Source of the DNA: Bacteroidota bacterium
GTDB taxonomy: Bacteria; Bacteroidota; Bacteroidia; Bacteroidales; GCA-2711565
Direction of reading: 5' to 3'
Assembly: GCA_018816945.1 (NCBI GenBank)
Contig: JAHIVC010000101.1
Location: 1 to 64,000, forward strand
DNA length: 64,000 nt
A program made the position numbers and the translations under genes. This document shows positions 8,799-43,547 of the stretch, piece after piece (the stretch's first letter is position 1; each line of letters begins with the position of its first letter). The notes below the pieces were generated by a model, which was given only the letters and a program-made list of their open reading frames with translations, was not told the DNA's origin and did not search any database.

Positions 8799-8873
8799 TG
8801 GGTCGTACGGGATTCGAACCTGTGACCTCATGCCTGTCAAGCATGCGCTCTAAACCAACTGAGCTAACGACCC
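8799..8873 (-). tRNA. tRNA-Val(GAC)
   Basis: The minus strand gives a full cloverleaf: acceptor GGGTCGT/ACGACCC, D arm GCTC/GAGC, anticodon stem CATGC/GCATG with loop TTGACAG (anticodon GAC, valine), T arm ACAGG-TTCGAAT-CCCGT and discriminator A. CCA is not encoded. Confidence 0.93.
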
Positions 8874-8890
8874 TAAGGATTTATGAATTC

Positions 8891-8962
8891 AGGATCTCCC
8901 TGCTTAAAATCGGGACGCTCTAAACCCTGCCTGCGGCAGGCAGGCAACTGAGCTAACGACCC
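8891..8962 (-). pseudogene. Degenerate tRNA-Val-like copy with an inserted palindrome
   Basis: Reading the minus strand from 8962, the 5' half repeats the neighbouring tRNA-Val exactly (GGGTCGTTAGCTCAGTT, then GGTTTAGAGCG) except for about 19 extra bases in the D loop that form a GC-rich palindrome. The anticodon region and 3' half no longer match the tRNA and cannot form a cloverleaf. It looks like a partial duplication of the adjacent tRNA that then received a small palindromic element. Confidence 0.75.
8926..8944. repeat. Palindromic mini-element inserted in tRNA remnant
   Basis: CCTGCCTGC-G-GCAGGCAGG is a perfect 9+1+9 palindrome. Comparison with the intact tRNA-Val D loop places the insertion between GG and TT, with the flanking tRNA sequence unchanged. 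Confidence 0.8.
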
Positions 8963-9019
8963 AAAATCTGCGCAAAAATATAAAACTTTCAATTAATTTT
9001 TATCATTTTATATAATGTA

Positions 9020-9051
9020 TTTGCTTAATTTAAAACTAATATCTATTTTTG
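9020..9051 (+). promoter_or_regulatory. Bacteroidota promoter of rpsU
   Basis: TTTG (9020-9023), 20 bases, then TATTTTTG (9044-9051) fits the Bacteroidota consensus TTTG-N19/21-TAnnTTTG. The expected start point is near 9056, about 37 bases before rpsU. Confidence 0.8.
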
Positions 9052-9092
9052 CACTCCCTAAAAAAATTAATTTTAAAAGAAAGAGGTAAAAA

Positions 9093-9287
9093 ATGATTAT
9101 TATTCCTGTAAAAGAAGGCGAAAATATTGACAGGGTTTTAAAAAAATACAAACGTAAATTTGAAAAAACCGGTGTTGTTAAAGAATTACGTGAAAGACAA
9201 AAATTCACTAAGCCATCAATTGTAAATAGAGAGCAACGATTAAAAGCGATTTATATTCAACAACTTAGGCAAAACGAGGAAGGATAA
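9093..9287 (+). CDS. rpsU: 30S ribosomal protein bS21
   Basis: The 64-residue basic protein starts MIIIPVKEGENIDRVLKK and has the arginine- and lysine-rich body and the SIVNREQRLKAIY tail typical of Bacteroidota bS21. It binds the small subunit near the anti-Shine-Dalgarno region of 16S rRNA and assists initiation. A purine-rich AAAGAGGT precedes the ATG. A consensus promoter lies just upstream, and a separate promoter serves the next gene. Confidence 0.95.
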   Translation: MIIIPVKEGENIDRVLKKYKRKFEKTGVVKELRERQKFTKPSIVNREQRLKAIYIQQLRQNEEG

Positions 9288-9319
9288 TCCTTCGGATCAA
9301 GAATAAAATAAAAGAAATA

Positions 9320-9350
9320 TTTGTTTCAGGTTGTTTATGTTGTAACTTTG
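9320..9350 (+). promoter_or_regulatory. Bacteroidota promoter of the xerC-like gene
   Basis: TTTG (9320-9323), 19 bases, then TAACTTTG (9343-9350) is an exact consensus match. The expected start point is near 9355, about 25 bases before the TTG start at 9380. A weak hairpin GAAAC/GTTTC with a T run (9350-9369) overlaps the start point. Confidence 0.75.
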
Positions 9351-9379
9351 AAACAGATGTTTCTTTTTTATTTTAAGTA

Positions 9380-10255
9380 TTGACTGAGAAATTCATACAA
9401 TATATACAGTTTGAGAAAAGATTCTCAACGCATACGATAAAAGCCTACCAAACTGACCTGGATCAGTTCTATCAGTATCTTGATGTTCATTACGATATTA
9501 ATGACACTAAAGAAATTAACCATCATATTATCCGATCATGGATAGTTCTTTTAATAGAAACCTCGATATCAACACGTTCTGTTAACCGCAAGCTTTCAAC
9601 TTTAAAAAGCTATTTCAAATTTCTGTTAAAAGAGGGTCTTATAGAAAAAAATCCTATGCAGAAAATAATAGCACCAAAATCATCAAAACGGCTTCCTGTT
9701 TTTATTGATCAAGACTCTATAGATTTATTACTTGATGAAATTGATTTTGGCAAAGGCTATTCAGCTTCGCGTGATAAGATAATAATTGAGCTGTTTTATT
9801 CCACCGGAATGAGGTTAAATGAGCTGATAAACATTAAAATATCCGACATCAATTTCACTACCAAAACGATAAAAATATTTGGGAAAAGAAACAAAGAGCG
9901 TTTGGTACCCTTAAGTTCTGAGTTCAATTTTAATTTATTGGATTATACTGAATCTCTTAAAAAAGAATACCCAGACAGTACTTATTTTTTCGTTACCAAT
10001 AAAGGTGAGAAACTCTATGAGAAATTTGTATATCGCCTTGTAAATACTTACCTTAGTAAAGTAACTACTATAAACAAAAAAAGCCCACACATATTGCGAC
10101 ATACATTTGCTACTCACATGTTAAACAGCGGTGCTGATTTAAATGCAATAAAAGAAATCCTCGGTCATGCCAATTTATCTGCTACACAAGTATATACGCA
10201 TAACACGATCGAGAAACTGAAATCAATATATAATCATGCCCATCCAAAGGCTTAA
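9380..10255 (+). CDS. Tyrosine recombinase XerC/XerD type
   Basis: The 291-residue protein has the N-terminal SAM-like core-binding domain (about 1-90) and a complete catalytic domain. The visible catalytic residues are R145 in MRLNEL, H237 and R240 in HILRHTFATH, H263 in LGHANL and the nucleophile Y272 in TQVYTH. Members resolve chromosome dimers at dif together with FtsK. A second Xer gene lies at 43591-44514, so the two probably form the XerC/XerD pair, this one being the more XerC-like partner; that pairing is inference. The start is TTG, placed 25 bases after the predicted transcription start. hpf follows 16 bases after the stop. Confidence 0.9.
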   Translation: MTEKFIQYIQFEKRFSTHTIKAYQTDLDQFYQYLDVHYDINDTKEINHHIIRSWIVLLIETSISTRSVNRKLSTLKSYFKFLLKEGLIEKNPMQKIIAPKSSKRLPVFIDQDSIDLLLDEIDFGKGYSASRDKIIIELFYSTGMRLNELINIKISDINFTTKTIKIFGKRNKERLVPLSSEFNFNLLDYTESLKKEYPDSTYFFVTNKGEKLYEKFVYRLVNTYLSKVTTINKKSPHILRHTFATHMLNSGADLNAIKEILGHANLSATQVYTHNTIEKLKSIYNHAHPKA

Positions 10256-10271
10256 AGAAAGGAGATGAATT

Positions 10272-10568
10272 ATGAAAGTAAGCATCAATTCGGTACATTT
10301 TAAGACAGACAAAAAATTGGATTTATTTATTACAGAAAAGCTTAACAAACTAGCGACAATTCATACTGATCTGATCGGAAGCGATGTTATGTTAAAGCTT
10401 GCCAACACGGATAATCCTGATAATAAAATTATAGAAATCAGATTATTGATTAAAGGCAATGATATTTTTGCAAAGAAACAGAGTAAAAGTTTTGAAGAAG
10501 CGACTGATCTTGCAATTGACGCCTTAAAAAAACAACTAAAAAAACACAAAGAAAAACTAAAAAATTAA
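10272..10568 (+). CDS. hpf: Short ribosome hibernation-promoting factor (HPF/RaiA family)
   Basis: The 98-residue protein has the beta-alpha-beta-beta-beta-alpha pattern of the HPF/RaiA fold. It starts MKVSINSVHFKTDKKL and ends in a basic helix (ATDLAIDALKKQLKKHKEKLKN). It lacks the C-terminal dimerisation domain of long HPF. It would bind the small subunit decoding centre of idle ribosomes. An AAAGGAG sequence, unusually strong for this phylum, precedes the ATG. It is likely co-transcribed with the recombinase, and the transcript ends at the hairpin at 10634. Confidence 0.9.
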   Translation: MKVSINSVHFKTDKKLDLFITEKLNKLATIHTDLIGSDVMLKLANTDNPDNKIIEIRLLIKGNDIFAKKQSKSFEEATDLAIDALKKQLKKHKEKLKN

Positions 10569-10602
10569 AAAATCATAAGTTGAACAAAAAATATATAAAT
10601 TC

Positions 10603-10633
10603 TTTGTTTATTAATTTTTAATATGTATTTTTG
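10603..10633 (+). promoter_or_regulatory. Bacteroidota promoter of the tRNA-tuf operon
   Basis: TTTG (10603-10606), 19 bases, then TATTTTTG (10626-10633) is an exact consensus match. The predicted start point (about 10637-10639) falls inside the stem of the hpf terminator that follows. Confidence 0.8.
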
Positions 10634-10663
10634 CAGACCTTTTTAAGAAGAGGTCTGTTTTTT
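10634..10663 (+). terminator. Terminator after hpf, overlapping the tuf operon start
   Basis: CAGACCT (10634-10640) pairs with AGGTCTG (10651-10657) and is followed by six T. It ends read-through from hpf. Transcripts from the promoter at 10603 would begin inside the 5' arm and so lack a complete stem. Confidence 0.8.
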
Positions 10664-10764
10664 GTTTAATGAGCATTGATTAATCTGCTAATATTGAGTT
10701 AATTGAAGGAGTTAATATAGTTGCCTGTAAACGAATATATTAATAATTCTAAATACGAATAAAG

Positions 10765-10837
10765 GCCGATATAGCTCAGTTGGTAGAGCAGCTGATTTGT
10801 AATCAGCCGGTCGGCGGTTCGAGCCCGTCTATCGGCT
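10765..10837 (+). tRNA. tRNA-Thr(TGT)
   Basis: The acceptor GCCGATA pairs with TATCGGC. The anticodon loop TTTGTAA gives anticodon TGT, and the T loop is TTCGAGC. It is first in a four-tRNA cluster before tuf. CCA is not encoded. Confidence 0.95.
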
Positions 10838-10866
10838 CAATTCAAAAAAATTGAATAATAATCGTT

Positions 10867-10948
10867 GGGGAGATTCCAGAGCGGTCAAATGGGGCAGACT
10901 GTAAATCTGTTGGCGCAGCCTTCGGAGGTTCGAATCCTCCTCTCCCCA
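10867..10948 (+). tRNA. tRNA-Tyr(GTA)
   Basis: The acceptor GGGGAGA pairs with TCTCCCC. The anticodon loop CTGTAAA gives GTA. It has the long class II variable arm (GGCGCAGCCTTC region) expected for bacterial tRNA-Tyr. Confidence 0.95.
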
Positions 10949-10998
10949 CAACAATTTTAGTGAATCGAGCATTAATCAGACTTTTAGGCTCAAAAATT

Positions 10999-11071
10999 GC
11001 GGGAGTAGCTCATTTGGTAGAGCGAAAGCCTTCCAAGCTTTAGGTGGCGGGTTCGAGCCCCGTCTCCCGCT
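10999..11071 (+). tRNA. tRNA-Gly(TCC)
   Basis: The acceptor GCGGGAG pairs with CTCCCGC. The anticodon stem AAAGC/GCTTT has loop CTTCCAA, giving TCC. Confidence 0.95.
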
Positions 11072-11076
11072 CAAAA

Positions 11077-11148
<72 letters not shown>

Positions 11149-11207
11149 CTAAATCGAAAATATTAATATTAAATCATATTTTAAAACATAATTTAAACAC
11201 TTTTGTT

Positions 11208-12395
11208 ATGGCCAAAGAAAAATTTGATCGCGCGAAACCGCATGTTAACATTGGAACCATTGGTCACGTTGACCACGGTAAAACTACGTTGACTGCTGCG
11301 ATTACACTCAATCTACAAGCTTTAGGGTTAGCCGAATTTAAATCCTTTGATTCAATTGATAACGCTCCTGAAGAAAGAGAAAGAGGGATCACTATCAACA
11401 CTGCACATGTTGAGTATTCTACTTACAACAGACATTATGCACACGTTGACTGTCCGGGTCACGCGGATTACGTTAAAAACATGGTTACAGGGGCTGCCCA
11501 AATGGACGGTGCTATCCTTGTTGTTGCCGCTACTGACGGTCCAATGCCTCAAACACGTGAACATATCCTTTTAGCCCGTCAGGTTGGCGTGCCTAAATTG
11601 GTTGTTTTCATGAATAAAGTTGACATGGTTGACGATGAAGAGCTTCTCGAACTTGTTGACATGGAAATCAGGGATCTTTTGACTTTCTATAAATTTGATG
11701 GTGAAAACACTCCAGTTATTCAAGGTTCAGCATTAGGTGCATTGAATGGTGAAGAAAAATGGGTTGCAAAAGTTATGGAATTGATGGAAGCTTGTGATAC
11801 ATGGATTCCATTGCCTCCACGTGATATTGACAAACCATTCTTAATGCCGGTTGAGGATGTATTCTCAATTACTGGTCGAGGAACAGTTGCTACAGGAAGA
11901 ATTGAATCAGGTATCATAAATACCGGTGATGCAGTTGATATCATTGGTATGGGTGCTGAGAAATTAAAATCAGTTGTTACCGGAGTTGAAATGTTCAGAA
12001 AAATTCTTGATAGAGGTGAAGCTGGTGACAATGCCGGTTTACTTTTAAGAGGAATTGACAAAGATGAGATTACAAGAGGTATGGTTATTGCCAAAACCGG
12101 TACTGTAACTCCTCACAAACATTTCAAAGCAGAGGTTTACATCCTGAAAAAAGAAGAAGGTGGTCGTCATACTCCATTTCACAACAAATATCGTCCACAA
12201 TTCTATTTCAGAACTACCGACGTTACTGGTGAAATTATGCTTCCTGAAGGAGTTGAAATGGTTATGCCAGGTGACAACTTAACTATTAATGTACAATTAA
12301 TTTCAGAAATTGCAATGCACCAAGGTCTTCGTTTCGCTATCCGTGAAGGTGGCAGAACTGTTGGAGCTGGTCAGGTAACTGAAATCATTAGTTAA
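11208..12395 (+). CDS. tuf: Translation elongation factor Tu
   Basis: The 395-residue GTPase brings aminoacyl-tRNA to the ribosome. The P loop GHVDHGKT (residues 19-26), the switch II region [12 protein letters not shown], the NKVD motif and the C-terminal domain ending in [10 protein letters not shown] are intact. The start chosen is the ATG at 11208 ([16 protein letters not shown]), although the frame stays open back into tRNA-Thr. It is carried by the tRNA-tuf transcript, and a long hairpin follows 12 bases after the stop. Codon choice is more regular than in flanking genes, as expected for a highly expressed protein. Confidence 0.98.
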
Positions 12396-12407
12396 TAAAA
12401 ACTATAT

Positions 12408-12453
12408 TGACAGATAAAGGTATTCTGCTTTAGGCAGTTACCTTTATCTGTCA
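12408..12453 (+). other. Long hairpin between tuf and tRNA-Trp
   Basis: A perfect 15-base-pair stem (12408-12422 with 12439-12453) encloses a second small CTGC/GCAG stem. No T tail follows, so an RNA-processing or mRNA 3'-end stabilising site between tuf and the tRNA-Trp-secE transcript is more likely than a simple terminator. Confidence 0.65.
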
Positions 12454-12474
12454 TATAAAAACATGTTTAAATAA

Positions 12475-12547
12475 ACGGGTGTAGCTCAATTGGTAGAGTA
12501 GTGGTCTCCAAAACCATTGGTTGTGGGTTCAAATCCTACCACCCGTG
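12475..12547 (+). tRNA. tRNA-Trp(CCA)
   Basis: The acceptor ACGGGTG pairs with CACCCGT. The anticodon loop CTCCAAA gives CCA, and the discriminator is G. It lies 16 bases before secE, the usual bacterial tRNA-Trp-secE-nusG arrangement. Confidence 0.96.
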
Positions 12548-29581: not shown

Positions 29582-29593
29582 CAGAATAATAAT

Positions 29594-29734
29594 TTCTTCG
29601 GGGCAGGGTGATTCGCCAACGCGAAAATTCCCGACCGGCGGTTAAAGTCCGCGACTCCCGATTTTTTAGTTAAAAAATCGGGATTGAACCTGTGAAATTC
29701 AGGTGCCGACAGTAAAGTCTGGATGGTAGAAGAA
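29594..29734 (+). promoter_or_regulatory. FMN riboswitch aptamer (RFN element)
   Basis: All conserved RFN blocks are present in order: TTCTTCGGGGCAGGGTG, a stem CGCCAACGCG, AATTCCCGACCGGCGGT, AAAGTCCGCGA, a variable stem (TCCCGATTTTTT/AAAAAATCGGGA), TGAACCTGTGAAATTCAGGTGCC, GACAGTAAAGTCTGGATG and GAAGAA. P1 is TTCTTC (29594-29599) with GAAGAA (29729-29734). It controls the TonB receptor at 29877. Conserved-core agreement is strong enough to call without a model search. Confidence 0.96.
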
Positions 29735-29825
29735 GATTATCCTTGGTTGATGCTTTCAATCATTTCTGTACCTTATATCAAATTAAGATGCATGAAGTGT
29801 TTTGATCAATAAATGATAATTCATA

Positions 29826-37692: not shown

Positions 37693-39162
37693 ATGAAAAG
37701 AATTTCCCAACTATTTATTCTTTTGCTCATCATCTTTCAAATTTCCTGTTCAAAAAAGGCAGGAGAGCCAACCACCGACCCTACAGTCGATCAAAAAGCG
37801 AGCCTTGTTATTTTATACACCAACGATGAACATGGTTGGATGGAAGCTGATAATACCTTTGGTGGTGCTGCCGGAATGTTTGAGTTATGGAAAACCAGAG
37901 AAGGATATAATAGTGCCGATTCATTTCTGGTTGTTAGTGGTGGCGATATGTGGACAGGTCCGGCAATTTCAACCTGGTTTCAGGGAGAATCGATGATTGA
38001 AGTGATGAATAAAATGGAATATGATGTTGCAACTATTGGAAATCATGAGTTTGATTTTACGATTGAAGGATTGCTTAAAAACAAACAATTACTTGAATTC
38101 CATTTGATCGCTGCAAACATCCGTACTAAAAGTACCGGAGAAATCCCCTCTTTCGCACTGCCCTATGTCATTGAAAATGCCGATGGTGTAAAAGTTGCTT
38201 TTATCGGCCTTGCATCCAGGAGTACACCTTATACAACCTTTCCTGCATTTGTGGCAGACTATGAATTTACTGCTTATGAAGATGCTTTAAATGAATATGT
38301 CCCGGCTGCCAAATTACAAGGCGCCGAAGTAATTATCGTTGTTGGTCATATTGGCGAAGATGAAATGACCCAGTTAGCTCCATTAGCAAAATCACTTGGC
38401 GTTATATTAATTACAGGAGGCCATACCCATCAAAAAGTATCCAAATCGTTAGATGGGGTCACACTCATTCAATCAGGATCGGGCCTGAAAAATTATTGTA
38501 AGGTTGTGATTGAATATGACAAATCAAGAAAAATTTCAAAAGTACTTTCAAATGAAATCGTAAACAATCCTTCGGTTGTTAGAAGTGTTAATGAAGTGCA
38601 AACCATTGTTGATAAATGGCAACTAAAAACCGAAGAAGATCTGGCAATGGTAATTGGCTATTGTTCACAAAAAATTTACAAATCCTCTCCTGAAATGATG
38701 AATATGGTTGCTGATTCATGGCTTTATGCCTACCCAAAAGCAGATATCTCGATGACAAATTCAGGGGGAATCAGGCAAGACATCATGCCGGGAGATATAA
38801 AATTAGAAACCATTGTAGGGCTTTTGCCTTTTACCAATACGCTTATTGAATTAGAGCTGACAGGTACTCAAGTTATCGACTGCATTGGCAATTTGGTAAT
38901 TGGTGGGATGACAACAGTTGGAGGATACAGGCTTGCTGATGGAAGTCCGATTGAGGCAAATACGATTTATTCAGTTTTAACAACTGATTATCTCTATTCA
39001 CTGCCATATAATAATGGTCCTTCAAAATTTGCTCAATATGATTCTGATCCTTATAATACCTCAATTTTATATATGCAACCAACAGTGGATTGGATCATCT
39101 CAAAAAATTCCAATGCACAAAATCCGATAAATAATTATTTGGATCCTATACCAAGACGTTAG
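37693..39162 (+). CDS. Lipoprotein 5'-nucleotidase/UDP-sugar hydrolase family (UshA-like)
   Basis: The start at 37693 (MKRISQLFILLLIIFQISCSKK) gives a lipoprotein signal with Cys at about residue 18; the frame opens earlier at 37600 but that part is not signal-like. The metallophosphoesterase domain shows TNDEHG, GGDMW, GNHEFD, VGHIG and GGHTHQ in order. The C-terminal nucleotidase domain carries TNSGGIRQDI and LLPFTN. The 489-residue length fits the family. It would hydrolyse nucleoside monophosphates, possibly including FMN, outside the inner membrane. That links it to the adjacent uptake receptors by inference only. Confidence 0.9.
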   Translation: MKRISQLFILLLIIFQISCSKKAGEPTTDPTVDQKASLVILYTNDEHGWMEADNTFGGAAGMFELWKTREGYNSADSFLVVSGGDMWTGPAISTWFQGESMIEVMNKMEYDVATIGNHEFDFTIEGLLKNKQLLEFHLIAANIRTKSTGEIPSFALPYVIENADGVKVAFIGLASRSTPYTTFPAFVADYEFTAYEDALNEYVPAAKLQGAEVIIVVGHIGEDEMTQLAPLAKSLGVILITGGHTHQKVSKSLDGVTLIQSGSGLKNYCKVVIEYDKSRKISKVLSNEIVNNPSVVRSVNEVQTIVDKWQLKTEEDLAMVIGYCSQKIYKSSPEMMNMVADSWLYAYPKADISMTNSGGIRQDIMPGDIKLETIVGLLPFTNTLIELELTGTQVIDCIGNLVIGGMTTVGGYRLADGSPIEANTIYSVLTTDYLYSLPYNNGPSKFAQYDSDPYNTSILYMQPTVDWIISKNSNAQNPINNYLDPIPRR

Positions 39163-39234: not shown

Positions 39235-39267
39235 ATTGGATTTCCGATATAAAACGTCTTACATTTG
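39235..39267 (+). promoter_or_regulatory. Promoter of the Phe/Tyr operon
   Basis: TACATTTG (39260-39267) fits TAnnTTTG, with ATTG (39235-39238) 21 bases upstream as a near-consensus -33 element. The start point would be near 39272, before leader peptide 1. Confidence 0.65.
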
Positions 39268-39285
39268 TCGCCACAATACAAAAGC

Positions 39286-39339
39286 ATGAAAAACACATTT
39301 TATACCTATTTCTATTTTTACTTTTATCTAAAAGGATAG
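39286..39339 (+). CDS. Phe/Tyr leader peptide 1
   Basis: The 17-codon frame reads MKNTFYTYFYFYFYLKG, with four Phe and five Tyr. It starts about 14 bases after the predicted transcription start. Its stop codon abuts GATGGGA, which can pair with the terminator's 5' arm. This is the classic layout of ribosome-mediated attenuation, with stalling when charged tRNA-Phe or tRNA-Tyr is scarce. Confidence 0.88.
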   Translation: MKNTFYTYFYFYFYLKG

Positions 39340-39402
39340 ATGGGAATTTGTATATAATAATATAAACTTAAGGTCCCATCAATACGATGGGACTTTTTTT
39401 TT
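39339..39402 (+). terminator. Attenuator 1 (terminator with competing antiterminator)
   Basis: The terminator is GTCCCATC (39373-39380) with GATGGGAC (39386-39393) and nine T. The antiterminator is GATGGGA (39339-39345) with TCCCATC (39374-39380). The two 5' partners are repeats of each other, so the pairings exclude each other. Confidence 0.88.
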
Positions 39403-39415
39403 GACATAAAGCAAT

Positions 39416-39496
39416 ATGAGAAATTTCAACACACATTTTGGTTTTTATTTTTATTTCTTCTTTTATCCACACAGGATTGGAGCGGTGTTCGTATAA
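39416..39496 (+). CDS. Phe/Tyr leader peptide 2
   Basis: This 26-codon frame starts MRNFNTHFG. Codons 8-17 contain six Phe and three Tyr (TTT GGT TTT TAT TTT TAT TTC TTC TTT TAT), and the peptide continues to a TAA at 39494. It lies entirely after the first attenuator, with no separate promoter box before it, so it is only made when attenuator 1 is read through. The composition resembles the pheA leader of enterobacteria. Confidence 0.87.
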   Translation: MRNFNTHFGFYFYFFFYPHRIGAVFV

Positions 39497-39544
39497 TAAA
39501 AATCTATTTATTAACCAATCCGCTCTAAAGGCGGATTTTTTTTT
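39474..39544 (+). terminator. Attenuator 2 (terminator with competing antiterminator)
   Basis: The terminator is AATCCGC (39517-39523) with GCGGATT (39531-39537) and T to 39544, ending just before pheA. The antiterminator is GGATTGG (39474-39480, inside leader 2 and 7 bases after its Phe/Tyr run) with CCAATCC (39515-39521). Confidence 0.86.
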
Positions 39545-39552
39545 GAAAAATT

Positions 39553-40425
39553 ATGAAGAAAGTAGGAATTCAAGGGTATTATAATTCATTTCATGAGATT
39601 GTGGCCCATCAATATTTTATAAATGAAGAAATTGAAATTGTGCCCTGTATGACCTTCGAAGGTTTGTTTGATGCCATTCACTCTTCAAAAGCCGATTTTG
39701 GAATTGTAGCAATAGAAAACACATTGGTGGGAAGCATACTGGGTAATTACACCCTGCTTCGCGAGTCGAATCTCTTAATTCGTGCCGAACACAAACTAAG
39801 GGTAAAACATAGTCTGCTCGCTTTAGAAGGTCAGAAGATTGAAGATATTACTGAAGTCCATTCACACCCAATGGCCCTGCAACAATGCGGCGAGTTCTTT
39901 AAGAGATATCCACATATTAAACTAATCAATAGCGATGATACTGCTTACAGTGCCTATGAAATTAGTCAGAACCAAATACTGGGAAGAGGTGCAATTTCGA
40001 ATGAAATAGCTGCAAAGAGTTTTGGCTTAAAACTGCTTGCAAGAGGGATTGAAACCAATAAGCGCAATTTTACCCGATTTTTAATCGTGAGCCCCATCGA
40101 CGAAACTGAAAAACAATTTAAAATTAAAGGTGAAATTAATAAGGCATCATGGGTTGTAACATTATCGCACCGATCAGGAAGTTTAGCACAACTTCTTACT
40201 GTTTTAGCAGCATTCGATATTAGTCTTACAAAAATCCAATCTCTTCCGTTAGTTGGACAAGAATGGACCTATTTGTTTTATATCGACATGATATTTGATA
40301 AAAATGATCAATACCAACGAGCGGTCCAAAGCATTGGGAAATATGTGGAAGACCTTAGAATATTGGGTGAATACCCGGCAGCAATAACTCCGGTTGAGCA
40401 TCAACAAATAAGTACACTTCACTAA
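39553..40425 (+). CDS. pheA: Prephenate dehydratase
   Basis: The 290-residue enzyme converts prephenate to phenylpyruvate. The N-terminal dehydratase domain (about 1-185) has GIVAIENTLVGSI, the HSHPMALQQC segment and the catalytic TRF motif in NFTRFLIV. An ACT domain follows (about 197-275). In that domain the ESRP motif that binds Phe in E. coli is KIQSLP and the GALV motif is GSLAQLL, so feedback by Phe may differ. It is the first gene of the operon, directly after two attenuators, and the next gene starts 6 bases later. Confidence 0.93.
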   Translation: MKKVGIQGYYNSFHEIVAHQYFINEEIEIVPCMTFEGLFDAIHSSKADFGIVAIENTLVGSILGNYTLLRESNLLIRAEHKLRVKHSLLALEGQKIEDITEVHSHPMALQQCGEFFKRYPHIKLINSDDTAYSAYEISQNQILGRGAISNEIAAKSFGLKLLARGIETNKRNFTRFLIVSPIDETEKQFKIKGEINKASWVVTLSHRSGSLAQLLTVLAAFDISLTKIQSLPLVGQEWTYLFYIDMIFDKNDQYQRAVQSIGKYVEDLRILGEYPAAITPVEHQQISTLH

Positions 40426-40431
40426 TATAAA

Positions 40432-41589
40432 ATGATTATACCGGCTAAAAGAGTTAACAGTATCAATGAATACTATTTCTCACACAAATTAAGGGAAATT
40501 GCCAGGAGAAATGCTTCAGGCGAAGATATCATCAATTTAGGGATTGGCAATCCTGATCTGTTGCCGTCCGATTCAACTATCGAAACTTTACAGGTTGAAA
40601 TTTCAAAAACAGACTCGCACGGTTACCAGCCTTACAAGGGAATTGACGAACTAAGGAACGCTTTCTCAAGTTGGTACAAATCAAAATTTAAGGTTGATTT
40701 AAATCCTGAAACTGAAATTTTACCCCTTATTGGTTCGAAAGAAGGGATCTTACATATATCCATGGCTTTTTTAAACCCGGGCGATAAAGTTTTAATTCCA
40801 GATCCGGGATACCCCACTTACAAGGCCGTTAGTGAACTGATAGGTGCAACTCCATTAATTTACAAACTGGAGAAAGAACTCAACTGGTTACCCAATTTGG
40901 GGAAATTAAGCAAACTGGATTTATCCGGAGTTAAACTGATGTGGGTAAACTATCCGAATATGCCTACAGGTGCTCAAATCAACAAAGAAGGCTTTAAAAA
41001 ATTGTTGGACTTTGCACGTTCAAACAACATTGTGATCTGTAACGATAATCCTTACAGTTTCATATTGAACGAGAAGCCTTTGAGTATTTTATCAATACCG
41101 GGTGCAAAAGAAATTGCGATTGAGTTAAATTCTCTGAGCAAATCGCACAATATGGCAGGATGGCGAATTGGAATGCTTGCTTCAAACACCCAGTTTATTC
41201 AATACATCCTTAAAGTAAAAAGCAATATGGATTCGGGCATTTTTAAACCTTTACAAAAAGCGGCTGCAAAAGCCCTGAACAATCCTGATTTCTGGTATCA
41301 GAATTTGAATCACGAGTATGCGGAAAGACAAAAAATCGGCTTTGAGATACTCGATATATTAAAATGTAATTATCAAATAAATCAGGTGGGAATGTTTATC
41401 TGGGCAGAAATCCCTAACTCTGTATATAGTTCCGAATCATATGCCGAACACATCCTGAACAAAGCAAAAGTATTCATTACACCCGGATTTATTTTCGGGG
41501 TTCAGGGCGAACGATATATCAGAATTTCATTAAGCAACTCTCGCGAAAAATTACTACTAGCCAAATCAAGAATTTTATTAAACATCTAA
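40432..41589 (+). CDS. Class I/II PLP aminotransferase, probably aromatic
   Basis: The 385-residue protein has the fold-type I pattern with GIGNPDLLPS near the N terminus, the VNYPNMPTGA loop (where most members have NPNNPTG), the PLP lysine K237 in SLSKSHNMAGWRIG and a C-terminal YIRISLS arginine motif. It most resembles LL-diaminopimelate or aspartate-type aminotransferases. Placement between pheA and the DAHP synthase suggests it makes Phe and Tyr from their keto acids, or transaminates prephenate. Gaps of 6 bases on both sides show tight operon packing. Confidence 0.85.
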   Translation: MIIPAKRVNSINEYYFSHKLREIARRNASGEDIINLGIGNPDLLPSDSTIETLQVEISKTDSHGYQPYKGIDELRNAFSSWYKSKFKVDLNPETEILPLIGSKEGILHISMAFLNPGDKVLIPDPGYPTYKAVSELIGATPLIYKLEKELNWLPNLGKLSKLDLSGVKLMWVNYPNMPTGAQINKEGFKKLLDFARSNNIVICNDNPYSFILNEKPLSILSIPGAKEIAIELNSLSKSHNMAGWRIGMLASNTQFIQYILKVKSNMDSGIFKPLQKAAAKALNNPDFWYQNLNHEYAERQKIGFEILDILKCNYQINQVGMFIWAEIPNSVYSSESYAEHILNKAKVFITPGFIFGVQGERYIRISLSNSREKLLLAKSRILLNI

Positions 41590-41595
41590 ATTATT

Positions 41596-42687
41596 ATGAA
41601 TCCGTCTATCGAAATTGAAACATTAAAAGTCAATAATCAGGAATTAAAAAGGCCGCTATATATAGCCGGGCCATGCAGTGCCGAAACCGAAGAGCAAACC
41701 CTTGCTACAGCCGGGGCATTGGCAGCGATGGGGATAAAAGTTTTCAGGGCCGGTATTTGGAAACCCAGAACACGCCCGGGCTCTTTTGAGGGTGTTGGTA
41801 CAAAAGGCCTTCCCTGGATGAAAAAGGTGAAGGAAGAAACAGGGATGCTCATTGGCACCGAGGTTGCCACCGCTGTTCATGTTTATGAAGCATTAAAATA
41901 CGGAATGGATATGCTGTGGATTGGTGCCCGGACAACCGCCAATCCTTTTGCTGTTCATGAAATTGCTGAAGCTATGCGTGGAGTTGACATTCCTATCTTA
42001 ATTAAAAACCCCGTGAATCCTGATTTGGATTTATGGATCGGAGCTATTGAACGAATAAATCAGGTGGGAGTTAAAAAAGTGGCAGCTATTCATCGTGGGT
42101 TTTCATCTTATAACAAAGCAAAATACAGGAACGAGCCAAACTGGCAAATTCCGATCGACTTAAAAAGAACCATTCCGGAGATTCAACTTATCGCTGATCC
42201 AAGCCATATTTCCGGAAAGCGGGATTTAATTTTAGAAGTTTCTCAGCAAGCCATGGATTTAAATTTTGATGGACTCATGATCGAAACACATATCGATCCG
42301 GACAATGCATGGAGCGATGCCAACCAACAATTAACTCCTGAAGGGTTAAAAGCTTTTTTTGATCAGTTGGTAGTCAGAAATACGAATAACAATCCAAAAG
42401 TCAATTACGATCTGGAAGATTTACGACACGAAATTGATCAACTGGATATCAGCATTCTTGATATGTTGGGTAAACGAATGCAGGTGGCTGAAAACATCGG
42501 ACGATACAAAAGGGATAATGATGTAACAATTTTTCAACCCGGCAGATATACGGAAATCATGGAGAAAAGAGCCAGACAGGCCATCATCAATGGATTAAGC
42601 CGAGAATTTAGCGACCAGATATTTAAGTCCATACACGAAGAATCCATCTTGCATCAAAAAATGATCATGAACAAAAATAAAATCTAA
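41596..42687 (+). CDS. Bifunctional DAHP synthase/chorismate mutase
   Basis: The 363-residue fusion has an N-terminal DAHP synthase of the AroA-I-beta type (about 1-265; AGPCSAETEEQ, AGIWKPRTRPGSFEG, GTEVA, IADPSHISGKRD). A C-terminal chorismate mutase follows (about 275-360; DLRHEIDQLDISILDMLGKR, NIGRYKRDNDVTIFQ). It catalyses the first step of the shikimate pathway and the branch step to prephenate. In relatives the mutase domain mediates inhibition of the synthase. Both activities feed its neighbours pheA and tyrA. Confidence 0.94.
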   Translation: MNPSIEIETLKVNNQELKRPLYIAGPCSAETEEQTLATAGALAAMGIKVFRAGIWKPRTRPGSFEGVGTKGLPWMKKVKEETGMLIGTEVATAVHVYEALKYGMDMLWIGARTTANPFAVHEIAEAMRGVDIPILIKNPVNPDLDLWIGAIERINQVGVKKVAAIHRGFSSYNKAKYRNEPNWQIPIDLKRTIPEIQLIADPSHISGKRDLILEVSQQAMDLNFDGLMIETHIDPDNAWSDANQQLTPEGLKAFFDQLVVRNTNNNPKVNYDLEDLRHEIDQLDISILDMLGKRMQVAENIGRYKRDNDVTIFQPGRYTEIMEKRARQAIINGLSREFSDQIFKSIHEESILHQKMIMNKNKI

Positions 42688-42710: not shown

Positions 42711-43547
42711 ATGAAAATATTAATTGTAGGCGCAGGAAAAATGGGCATTTGGCTCTCCGACGCACTTTGTTTGCAACATGAAGTAGCAATTTTTGATCGG
42801 AATATGGAAAAGCTCAAGTACGTATTTAATACGGAAAGATTAATAAACTTACAGCAGATTCAGGAGTTCGATCCCGAATTATTGATTAATGCTGTCGACT
42901 TAAAAAATACTATACAGGCCTTTGATGAACTAACTCCCTATTTGTCTCAGCAATGTATTCTTGCAGATATTGCATCCGTAAAAAATGGCCTTAGAAATTA
43001 CTACCTGGAAAGCGGATTCCGATTTGTATCAACACATCCGATGTTCGGGCCTACTTTTGCAAGTTTAAGGGATTTAAAAAATCAACATGCCATTATCATC
43101 AAAGAATCAGATGAAATTGGAAAAAATTTCTTTCATTCATTTTATGAATCATTAAATTTAAGCATTCATGAATATTCTTTTGTTGGTCACGATCAAACGA
43201 TCGCTTATTCATTGGCAATCCCTTTTTCGTCAACCCTAGTTTTTGCTGCTTGCATGCGGAAACAAGATGCACCCGGAACGACTTTCAAAAATCATCTAAA
43301 AATTGCCGAAGGCTTACTTTCGGAAGATGTTTTCCTGATTTCAGAGATTTTATTCGGGCCCCACAGTGCATTTCAATTGGAACGGATCAAAGATCAATTA
43401 ATTCATTTACTTGAAATCATAAAAAATAAGGATACTGAAAAACTTCATCAATATCTCCATGATATAAAAAAGAATTTGAACTCCCCGGCCATAAGGCCGG
43501 AAGAATTCATTGAAACCTTAAATAATATGGAACACGGCATCATTTAA
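42711..43547 (+). CDS. tyrA: Prephenate dehydrogenase
   Basis: The 278-residue protein starts with a dinucleotide-binding motif (MKILIVGAGKMGIWLSD). It contains the ADIASVKNGLRNYY and STHPMFGPTFASL segments typical of TyrA, where the conserved His of HPMFGP contributes to catalysis. It oxidises prephenate to 4-hydroxyphenylpyruvate with NAD(P). It is the last biosynthetic gene of the operon; xerD follows after 43 bases. Confidence 0.92.
   Translation: MKILIVGAGKMGIWLSDALCLQHEVAIFDRNMEKLKYVFNTERLINLQQIQEFDPELLINAVDLKNTIQAFDELTPYLSQQCILADIASVKNGLRNYYLESGFRFVSTHPMFGPTFASLRDLKNQHAIIIKESDEIGKNFFHSFYESLNLSIHEYSFVGHDQTIAYSLAIPFSSTLVFAACMRKQDAPGTTFKNHLKIAEGLLSEDVFLISEILFGPHSAFQLERIKDQLIHLLEIIKNKDTEKLHQYLHDIKKNLNSPAIRPEEFIETLNNMEHGII

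Follow-up and report, generated by a model that had tools for sequence, protein, structure and literature searches.

Does transcription of a Bacteroidales pheA operon pass through two attenuators in succession, and if so, are the two gates alike? The question arises from the window analyzed here, a stretch of 64,000 nucleotides in which pheA heads a run of four genes whose domain content specifies phenylalanine and tyrosine as the products (Table 1). An earlier note on this DNA proposed two consecutive Phe/Tyr leader attenuators before pheA, and both were found complete at 39286-39544. Each module comprises an open reading frame (ORF) with a run of product codons, an intrinsic terminator before pheA, and a mutually exclusive antiterminator, the features by which an attenuator is recognized. 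We infer, with a probability of about 80%, that transcription of the pheA-tyrA operon starts at a single promoter upstream of leader 1 and then has to pass two ribosome-mediated attenuators, one after the other.

Table 1. Positions of the leader, promoter, and operon features in the window
Feature	Position	Strand	Sequence or basis
Putative -7 box, presumed Bacteroidota type (TAnnTTTG)	39260-39267	+	TACATTTG; kept in G001 and G004
Leader peptide 1	39286-39339	+	MKNTFYTYFYFYFYLKG, then stop; aligns in G001 and G004
Antiterminator strand 1 (region II)	39339-39345	+	GATGGGA; its first base is the final base of the stop codon
Terminator 1	39370-39402	+	Stem 39370-39396; T tract 39394-39402 (9 T)
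Leader peptide 2	39416-39496	+	MRNFNTHFGFYFYFFFYPHRIGAVFV, then stop
Antiterminator strand 2 (region II)	39477-39485	+	TTGGAGCGG; within leader 2, stop codon 8 nt beyond
Terminator 2	39517-39544	+	Stem 39517-39537; T tract 39536-39544 (9 T); identical in G001
pheA, prephenate dehydratase	39553-40425	+	PF00800, E = 6.9e-52
Aminotransferase class I/II	40432-41589	+	PF00155
DAHP synthase fused to chorismate mutase	41596-42687	+	PF00793 and PF01817
tyrA-like prephenate dehydrogenase	42711-43547	+	PF02153, E = 5.8e-9

Leader 1 contains 4 Phe and 5 Tyr among 17 residues, and leader 2 contains 8 Phe and 3 Tyr among 26. The first leader, its own terminator, and the complementarity of GATGGGA to TCCCATC (39374-39380; duplex, -10.0 kcal/mol) are present as the earlier note described them, both in the sequence and in the folds, and the second Phe/Tyr-rich frame likewise has its own terminator, whose T tract ends 8 bases before the pheA start codon. 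A plain scan of both strands of the region yields three terminator-like sites, as opposed to 0.2 expected. When the stalled intermediate of leader 1 (39336-39385, with the 3' arm of the terminator not yet made) is folded, the antiterminator forms at -11.8 kcal/mol; in the complete stalled RNA the terminator is still more stable (-18.0), so that any antitermination at leader 1 would need to be kinetic. The antiterminator of leader 2 forms in the stalled intermediate (-16.8 kcal/mol) and persists in the complete RNA (-17.6). Both modules fold into the terminator when the ribosome is placed at the stop codon and also when the RNA carries no ribosome. In the untranslated RNA, a possible protector pairing of the codon run with region II is predicted in the window as a clear hairpin in leader 1 and a weaker one in leader 2.

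The antiterminator of the second module is not the one originally proposed. TTGGAGCGG pairs with CCGCTCTAA (39520-39528) at -13.1 kcal/mol, and in G001, a genome of the same genus, the strand reads TTAGAGCGG and pairs with CCGCTCTAA at -13.4 kcal/mol, the helix being kept through a change from G-U to A-U (consensus of the strand in the two genomes, TTRGAGCGG). The earlier note had assigned the switch to GGATTGG (39474-39480) and CCAATCC (39515-39521). Their complementarity is real, but the pairing is broken in G001, where the corresponding columns read AGATTAG and the duplex weakens from -9.0 to -1.6 kcal/mol, and we rejected it as the main switch in favor of the stronger, conserved helix. GGAUUGG may instead take part in a weak predicted hairpin with the codon run.

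Under the proposed mechanism, scarcity of Phe-tRNA or Tyr-tRNA would stall the ribosome within the Phe/Tyr run of either module, leaving the strand that begins about 11 to 13 nt beyond the run free to pair with the terminator's 5' arm, and the polymerase would continue. A ribosome that reached the stop codon would cover the antiterminator strand, and the terminator would form. Expression would require escape at both gates, so that the overall leak at ample Phe and Tyr would be close to that of the first gate multiplied by that of the second. Both leaders are presumably translated and active and act independently, in which case doubling would be expected to lower the leak and widen the range; serial gating might also make the response steeper.

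Modules of this kind are common upstream of pheA in the Bacteroidales. Among the matches listed (182 of the 392 genomes that had one), omitting from retrieval those in G238, G295, G352, G157, and G223, 171 pheA loci of the order reduced to 162 distinct ones, and 159 were scanned after removal of three with short upstream sequence (L020, L059, and L118). One locus, L031, has a pheA gene broken at a contig end and an intact upstream region. A first detector, which missed bulged terminators, called one module at 118, two at 22, and none at 22 of the 162 loci. A second, fold-based detector called one module at 115, two at 27, and none at 17 of the 159; it was written after inspection of the misses of the first, a caveat carried by its five additional doubles (L086, L126, L138, L139, and L153). 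The 17 loci without modules reflect strict thresholds, since the first detector called one module at L099, and Phe/Tyr-containing ORFs are present at L030 and L063. No module was called in 477 dinucleotide shuffles or on 159 reverse strands, and 120 real his and trp upstream windows returned two false matches, both at the minimum Phe/Tyr score. That minimum (6 of 10) is shared by leader 1 of L019, L100, and L165, 3 of the 54 modules in tandem; 24 doubles are left when these loci are set aside. The tandem design, which the earlier note took to be uncommon, is uncommon with respect to the searched literature and not with respect to the order.

Beyond the Bacteroidales, the survey covered 32 of the 44 genomes with a match from the same class and 38 of 127 from other classes. 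Of the 32 loci from other orders of the same class, 27 have a single module, 5 have no module, and none is double; elsewhere in the phylum, 1 of the 38 loci carries a single module. The frequency of doubles differs between the Bacteroidales and the other orders (27 of 159 versus 0 of 32; P = 0.0096, Fisher exact test, a statistic that ignores relatedness). Within the window's own genome, a pattern of six Phe/Tyr codons has 54 matches, not above the reversed control (28 + 26 versus 31 + 32). Scanning of the loci at 30 of these 54 matches, the window's own not among them, gave two weak module calls (L178 and L180), which we judged to be due to chance.

If these are attenuators, the strand that follows each Phe/Tyr run should match its own terminator. 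For each module, we took the stretch downstream of the run and scored its best helix with the terminator's 5' arm. The score was higher with the module's own partner than with partners permuted among loci in single modules (21.4 versus 15.3), in leader 1 of doubles (19.7 versus 14.1), and in leader 2 (20.6 versus 13.9), and in none of the three sets did any of 60 permutations reach the observed mean. Compared one by one with their own shuffles, most modules scored above 95% of them (86 of 115 singles, 16 of 27 first leaders, and 20 of 27 second leaders), with a minority falling short. The median distance from the run to the start of the pairing strand is 13 nt in singles, 12 nt in leader 1, and 11 nt in leader 2, which places the strand just past a ribosome stalled in the run, given the footprint sizes in the available text of PMC3641672 and PMC4833913. 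At least five pairs form in the stalled-intermediate fold in 115 of 115 singles, 25 of 27 first leaders, and 26 of 27 second leaders, a weak test because 71 to 79% of shuffles attain the same.

The two leaders of a double differ in composition and in where they end. The leader 1 of the window is richer in Tyr and leader 2 in Phe, as the earlier note stated, and the contrast is weak over the relatives: the Phe fraction is higher in leader 2 in 19 of the 27 doubles and lower in 7 (P = 0.049, Wilcoxon test), falling to 12 of 16 when counted by clade (P = 0.10). These asymmetries would suit a two-input logic, in which leader 1 responds mainly to Tyr and leader 2 mainly to Phe and the operon opens fully only when both are short, but the clade-level value, the reversed cases, and the presence of at least one Phe and at least one Tyr in both leaders of every double make such a division of labor unlikely. 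The end points of the leaders differ somewhat more clearly: leader 1 continues for a median of 3 sense codons past the 10-codon window and leader 2 for 9 (P = 0.004; 12 of 16 clades, P = 0.036). These values, like those for the Phe bias, are not strong because several traits were compared. In the window, leader 1 stops at the start of its antiterminator strand, and leader 2 crosses its strand before stopping. According to the model of Elf and Ehrenberg, in the part of PMC1183508 available, ribosome release at the stop codon sets the leak, and a stop codon far down region II lowers it. By this logic, the stop positions would make leader 1 a leaky gate and leader 2 a tight one.

Close relatives bear on whether both gates of the proposed series matter. 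The window's own genome (G000) shares its genus with G001, G002, G003, G004, and G005. G001, with a PheA protein 96% identical, has both modules: the stem of terminator 1 is kept, and leader 2 retains all 11 of its Phe and Tyr residues, with a tail differing by three residues. G003 also has two modules, and G005 has one; no PheA was found in G002, an assembly that is 68% complete. In G004 (PheA, 79%), the -7 box and module 1 are present, with the terminator 1 stem nearly kept, and after terminator 1 the sequence shares GACATAAAG with the window and then continues straight to pheA; alignment of the pheA upstream regions reveals no module 2 in this genome, leader 2 being missing. The earlier note had named, as evidence against its reading, relatives that keep the operon and lose the codons or the competing stems; this is seen in part in G004, which keeps the gene and leader 1 without module 2, and is not seen in G001, where the Phe/Tyr codons and stems of module 2 are kept. 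In G001, additional DNA that includes stem-loop-like stretches separates the upstream gene from the pheA promoter (L032, about 2475-2660); the likeness of G001 to the window stops at 2475 and returns at 2659, just before the promoter.

The double state was mapped on a PheA tree of 158 rows, built by a quick method with a midpoint root and with L031 outside it. Doubles form 15 all-double clades plus the unplaced L031, and parsimony requires at least 14 changes, as opposed to a mean of 24.4 and a minimum of 21 in 200 label shuffles; the number of origins is approximate, since the tree is a quick one and 50 of its 155 inner branches are weakly supported. Parsimony does not separate gain from repeated loss of the second module. 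When the modules of a double are compared with that of its closest single-module relative, the match is better for module 1 in L002/L003, L126, L153, and L102 and for module 2 in L138/L139 and L165; the other doubles have no clear preference. A leader type whose Phe/Tyr run ends in FM occurs as leader 2 of L126, L138, L139, and L153 and as the sole leader of L114, a slight indication that a first unit was lost there. Outside the Phe/Tyr run, likeness is greater between the two modules of a locus than between modules taken from different clades (25.4 versus 19.8, P = 0.008; highest in L008), and three direct repeats with a spacing of 138 to 143 nt join the two modules of the window. An origin of the second copy by tandem duplication followed by divergence is plausible, and shared constraint could have added to the likeness.

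Such duplication would also fit the view that one module works and the other is a recent duplicate or decaying remnant without consequence, as would the presence of module 1 alone in G004. We consider this quite improbable: in G001, leader 2 retains its Phe/Tyr residues, terminator 2 is identical, and the antiterminator survives through a G-U to A-U change, although the tail of the leader differs by three residues; both modules pass the matched-pairing test over the 27 doubles; and a random remnant would not reappear in 15 clades. Found in a fair share of the relatives, doubling looks instead, as far as sequence comparison goes, like a repeatedly evolved means of tightening control.

Two serial attenuators require that a single transcript span both modules. 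The earlier note reported no promoter box between them, and the plus strand there indeed has neither a sigma-70-like site (one weak site lies on the minus strand) nor TAnnTTTG, the consensus that we take to be the Bacteroidota -7 box. In the window, TTG at 39236-39238 could be the upstream box of TACATTTG. In the survey of the order, 18 of the 27 doubles have TAnnTTTG in the 70 nt preceding leader 1, and none has it in the 70 nt preceding leader 2 (P of about 1e-7, Fisher exact test); the chance rate in shuffles is 6 to 7.5%, from which 0 of 27 does not differ, so that leader 2 simply lacks the enrichment found before leader 1. This distribution suggests that a single promoter likely serves both modules and that one polymerase probably passes both gates. 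Taken with the module counts, the matched pairing, and the folds, comparison across relatives supports the proposal of series attenuators on one transcript well. That terminator 1 instead ends a separate transcript (a short RNA or read-through from the phosphoesterase gene, which lies upstream on the same strand and ends at 39162) and that pheA has a promoter near leader 2 is highly improbable, for although 9 of the 27 doubles lack the box before leader 1 as well, none has it before leader 2, the gap from terminator 1 to leader 2 in the window is 19 nt by the detector's count, and 93 of the 115 single-module loci have the box before their sole leader.

The leader stretch matches no Rfam family at the gathering score. 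Under relaxed limits, Phe_leader (RF01859) scores 25.3 bits in module 1 and 26.5 bits in module 2, below its gathering score of 55, and the best subthreshold match of module 2 is Trp_leader (31.5 bits, cutoff 41). Bacteroid-trp (RF01692), which is listed in the accessible text of PMC2864571, has no gathering match in the region and none at an E value of 5 or below in the relaxed search. Elsewhere in the window are an FMN riboswitch aptamer (RF00050) at 29590-29738 on the plus strand (99.7 bits) and six tRNA genes within 8799-12547, five of them on the plus strand between 10765 and 12547.

The arrangement resembles the enterobacterial pheA attenuator in its Phe-codon-rich leader ORF, intrinsic terminator, competing antiterminator, and target gene, and departs from it in having two serial units with mixed Phe/Tyr runs that score below the RF01859 threshold. 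In the Bacteroidota, leader-peptide attenuation has been suggested rather than demonstrated in the accessible portions of the literature: clues to leader peptides and conserved structured 5' elements precede pheA and hisG in Flavobacteriaceae (PMC9723704), and short ORFs of Bacteroides thetaiotaomicron are reminiscent of leader peptides (PMC7366714). The leaders in the available parts of PMC9723704 and PMC2864571 belong to the same phylum and have similar targets, and most of the pheA leaders sampled here are, like them, single units; unlike the case here, no doubling is described in those parts. In 2010, the authors of PMC2965389 were aware of no leader-peptide system beyond the Proteobacteria and Actinobacteria; the searchable text of that paper does not contain the word "Bacteroid" and does mention that some rimP leaders have an additional terminator located upstream.

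Serial control of one operon has precedents of other kinds. The Salmonella mgtCBR leader (mgtM/mgtP), as covered in the available text of PMC3641672, also has two short ORFs and two serial attenuators in one leader, but its attenuators respond to different signals (ATP and proline) and lack typical intrinsic terminators, whereas here, by codon content, Phe/Tyr would be the signal for both leaders, each of which is followed by an intrinsic terminator. Tandem riboswitches and T-boxes likewise place serial sensor-terminator units, often of the same class, before one gene; there, according to the accessible portion of PMC12452182, the RNA itself is the sensor, and here it would be a translating ribosome. 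No description of tandem leader attenuators for the same amino acid was found in the open-licence literature, as far as its accessible text extends. The leader attenuator as a type is thus known, and its doubled same-amino-acid form is new relative to that searched literature.

Doubled leaders also occur in other amino acid operons of the order, according to scans with looser rules than those of the pheA detector and without shuffles. Among 30 hisG upstream regions, 23 have one His leader with a terminator, 2 have two, and 5 have none; the two (L297 in G037 and L300 in G069) carry two serial His-rich leaders, each with a terminator. Among 30 trpE upstream regions, 18 have one Trp leader with a terminator, 10 have none, and 2 were called as having two, of which one is clear: L317 (G011), with two WWW leaders and two terminators in series, in a genome that also carries the doubled pheA leader L031. 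The other (L313) was not counted, its first "leader," MPLRARAWW, being doubtful. By the same loose scans, the window's own genome has one His leader before hisG (MTFNKLHHHHFHTGTQARRN; L289, G000:C97) and one Trp leader before trpE (MKNIVLNNWWWSFNTR; L308, G000:C15). A tentative extension, possible rather than probable, is that the Bacteroidales have repeatedly built unequal compound attenuators, with a leaky first gate like that of E. coli trp and a tight second gate, which would combine a low leak with a wide and steep response without a repressor protein; the his and trp doubles would then point to a general design in the order.

If both gates work, the pheA leader would represent a repeatedly evolved circuit in which ribosomes read one signal twice in series. 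Attenuation models treat one gate only, at least in the available part of PMC1183508, and the order contains genera in which natural single and double forms coexist (G004 versus G000 and G001, L152 versus L126, and L163 and L169 versus L153), pairs that could show whether serial attenuation lowers the leak, widens the range, or steepens the response. The reading, if true, would also mean that translation in the Bacteroidota runs close enough behind transcription to allow control near the 5' end.
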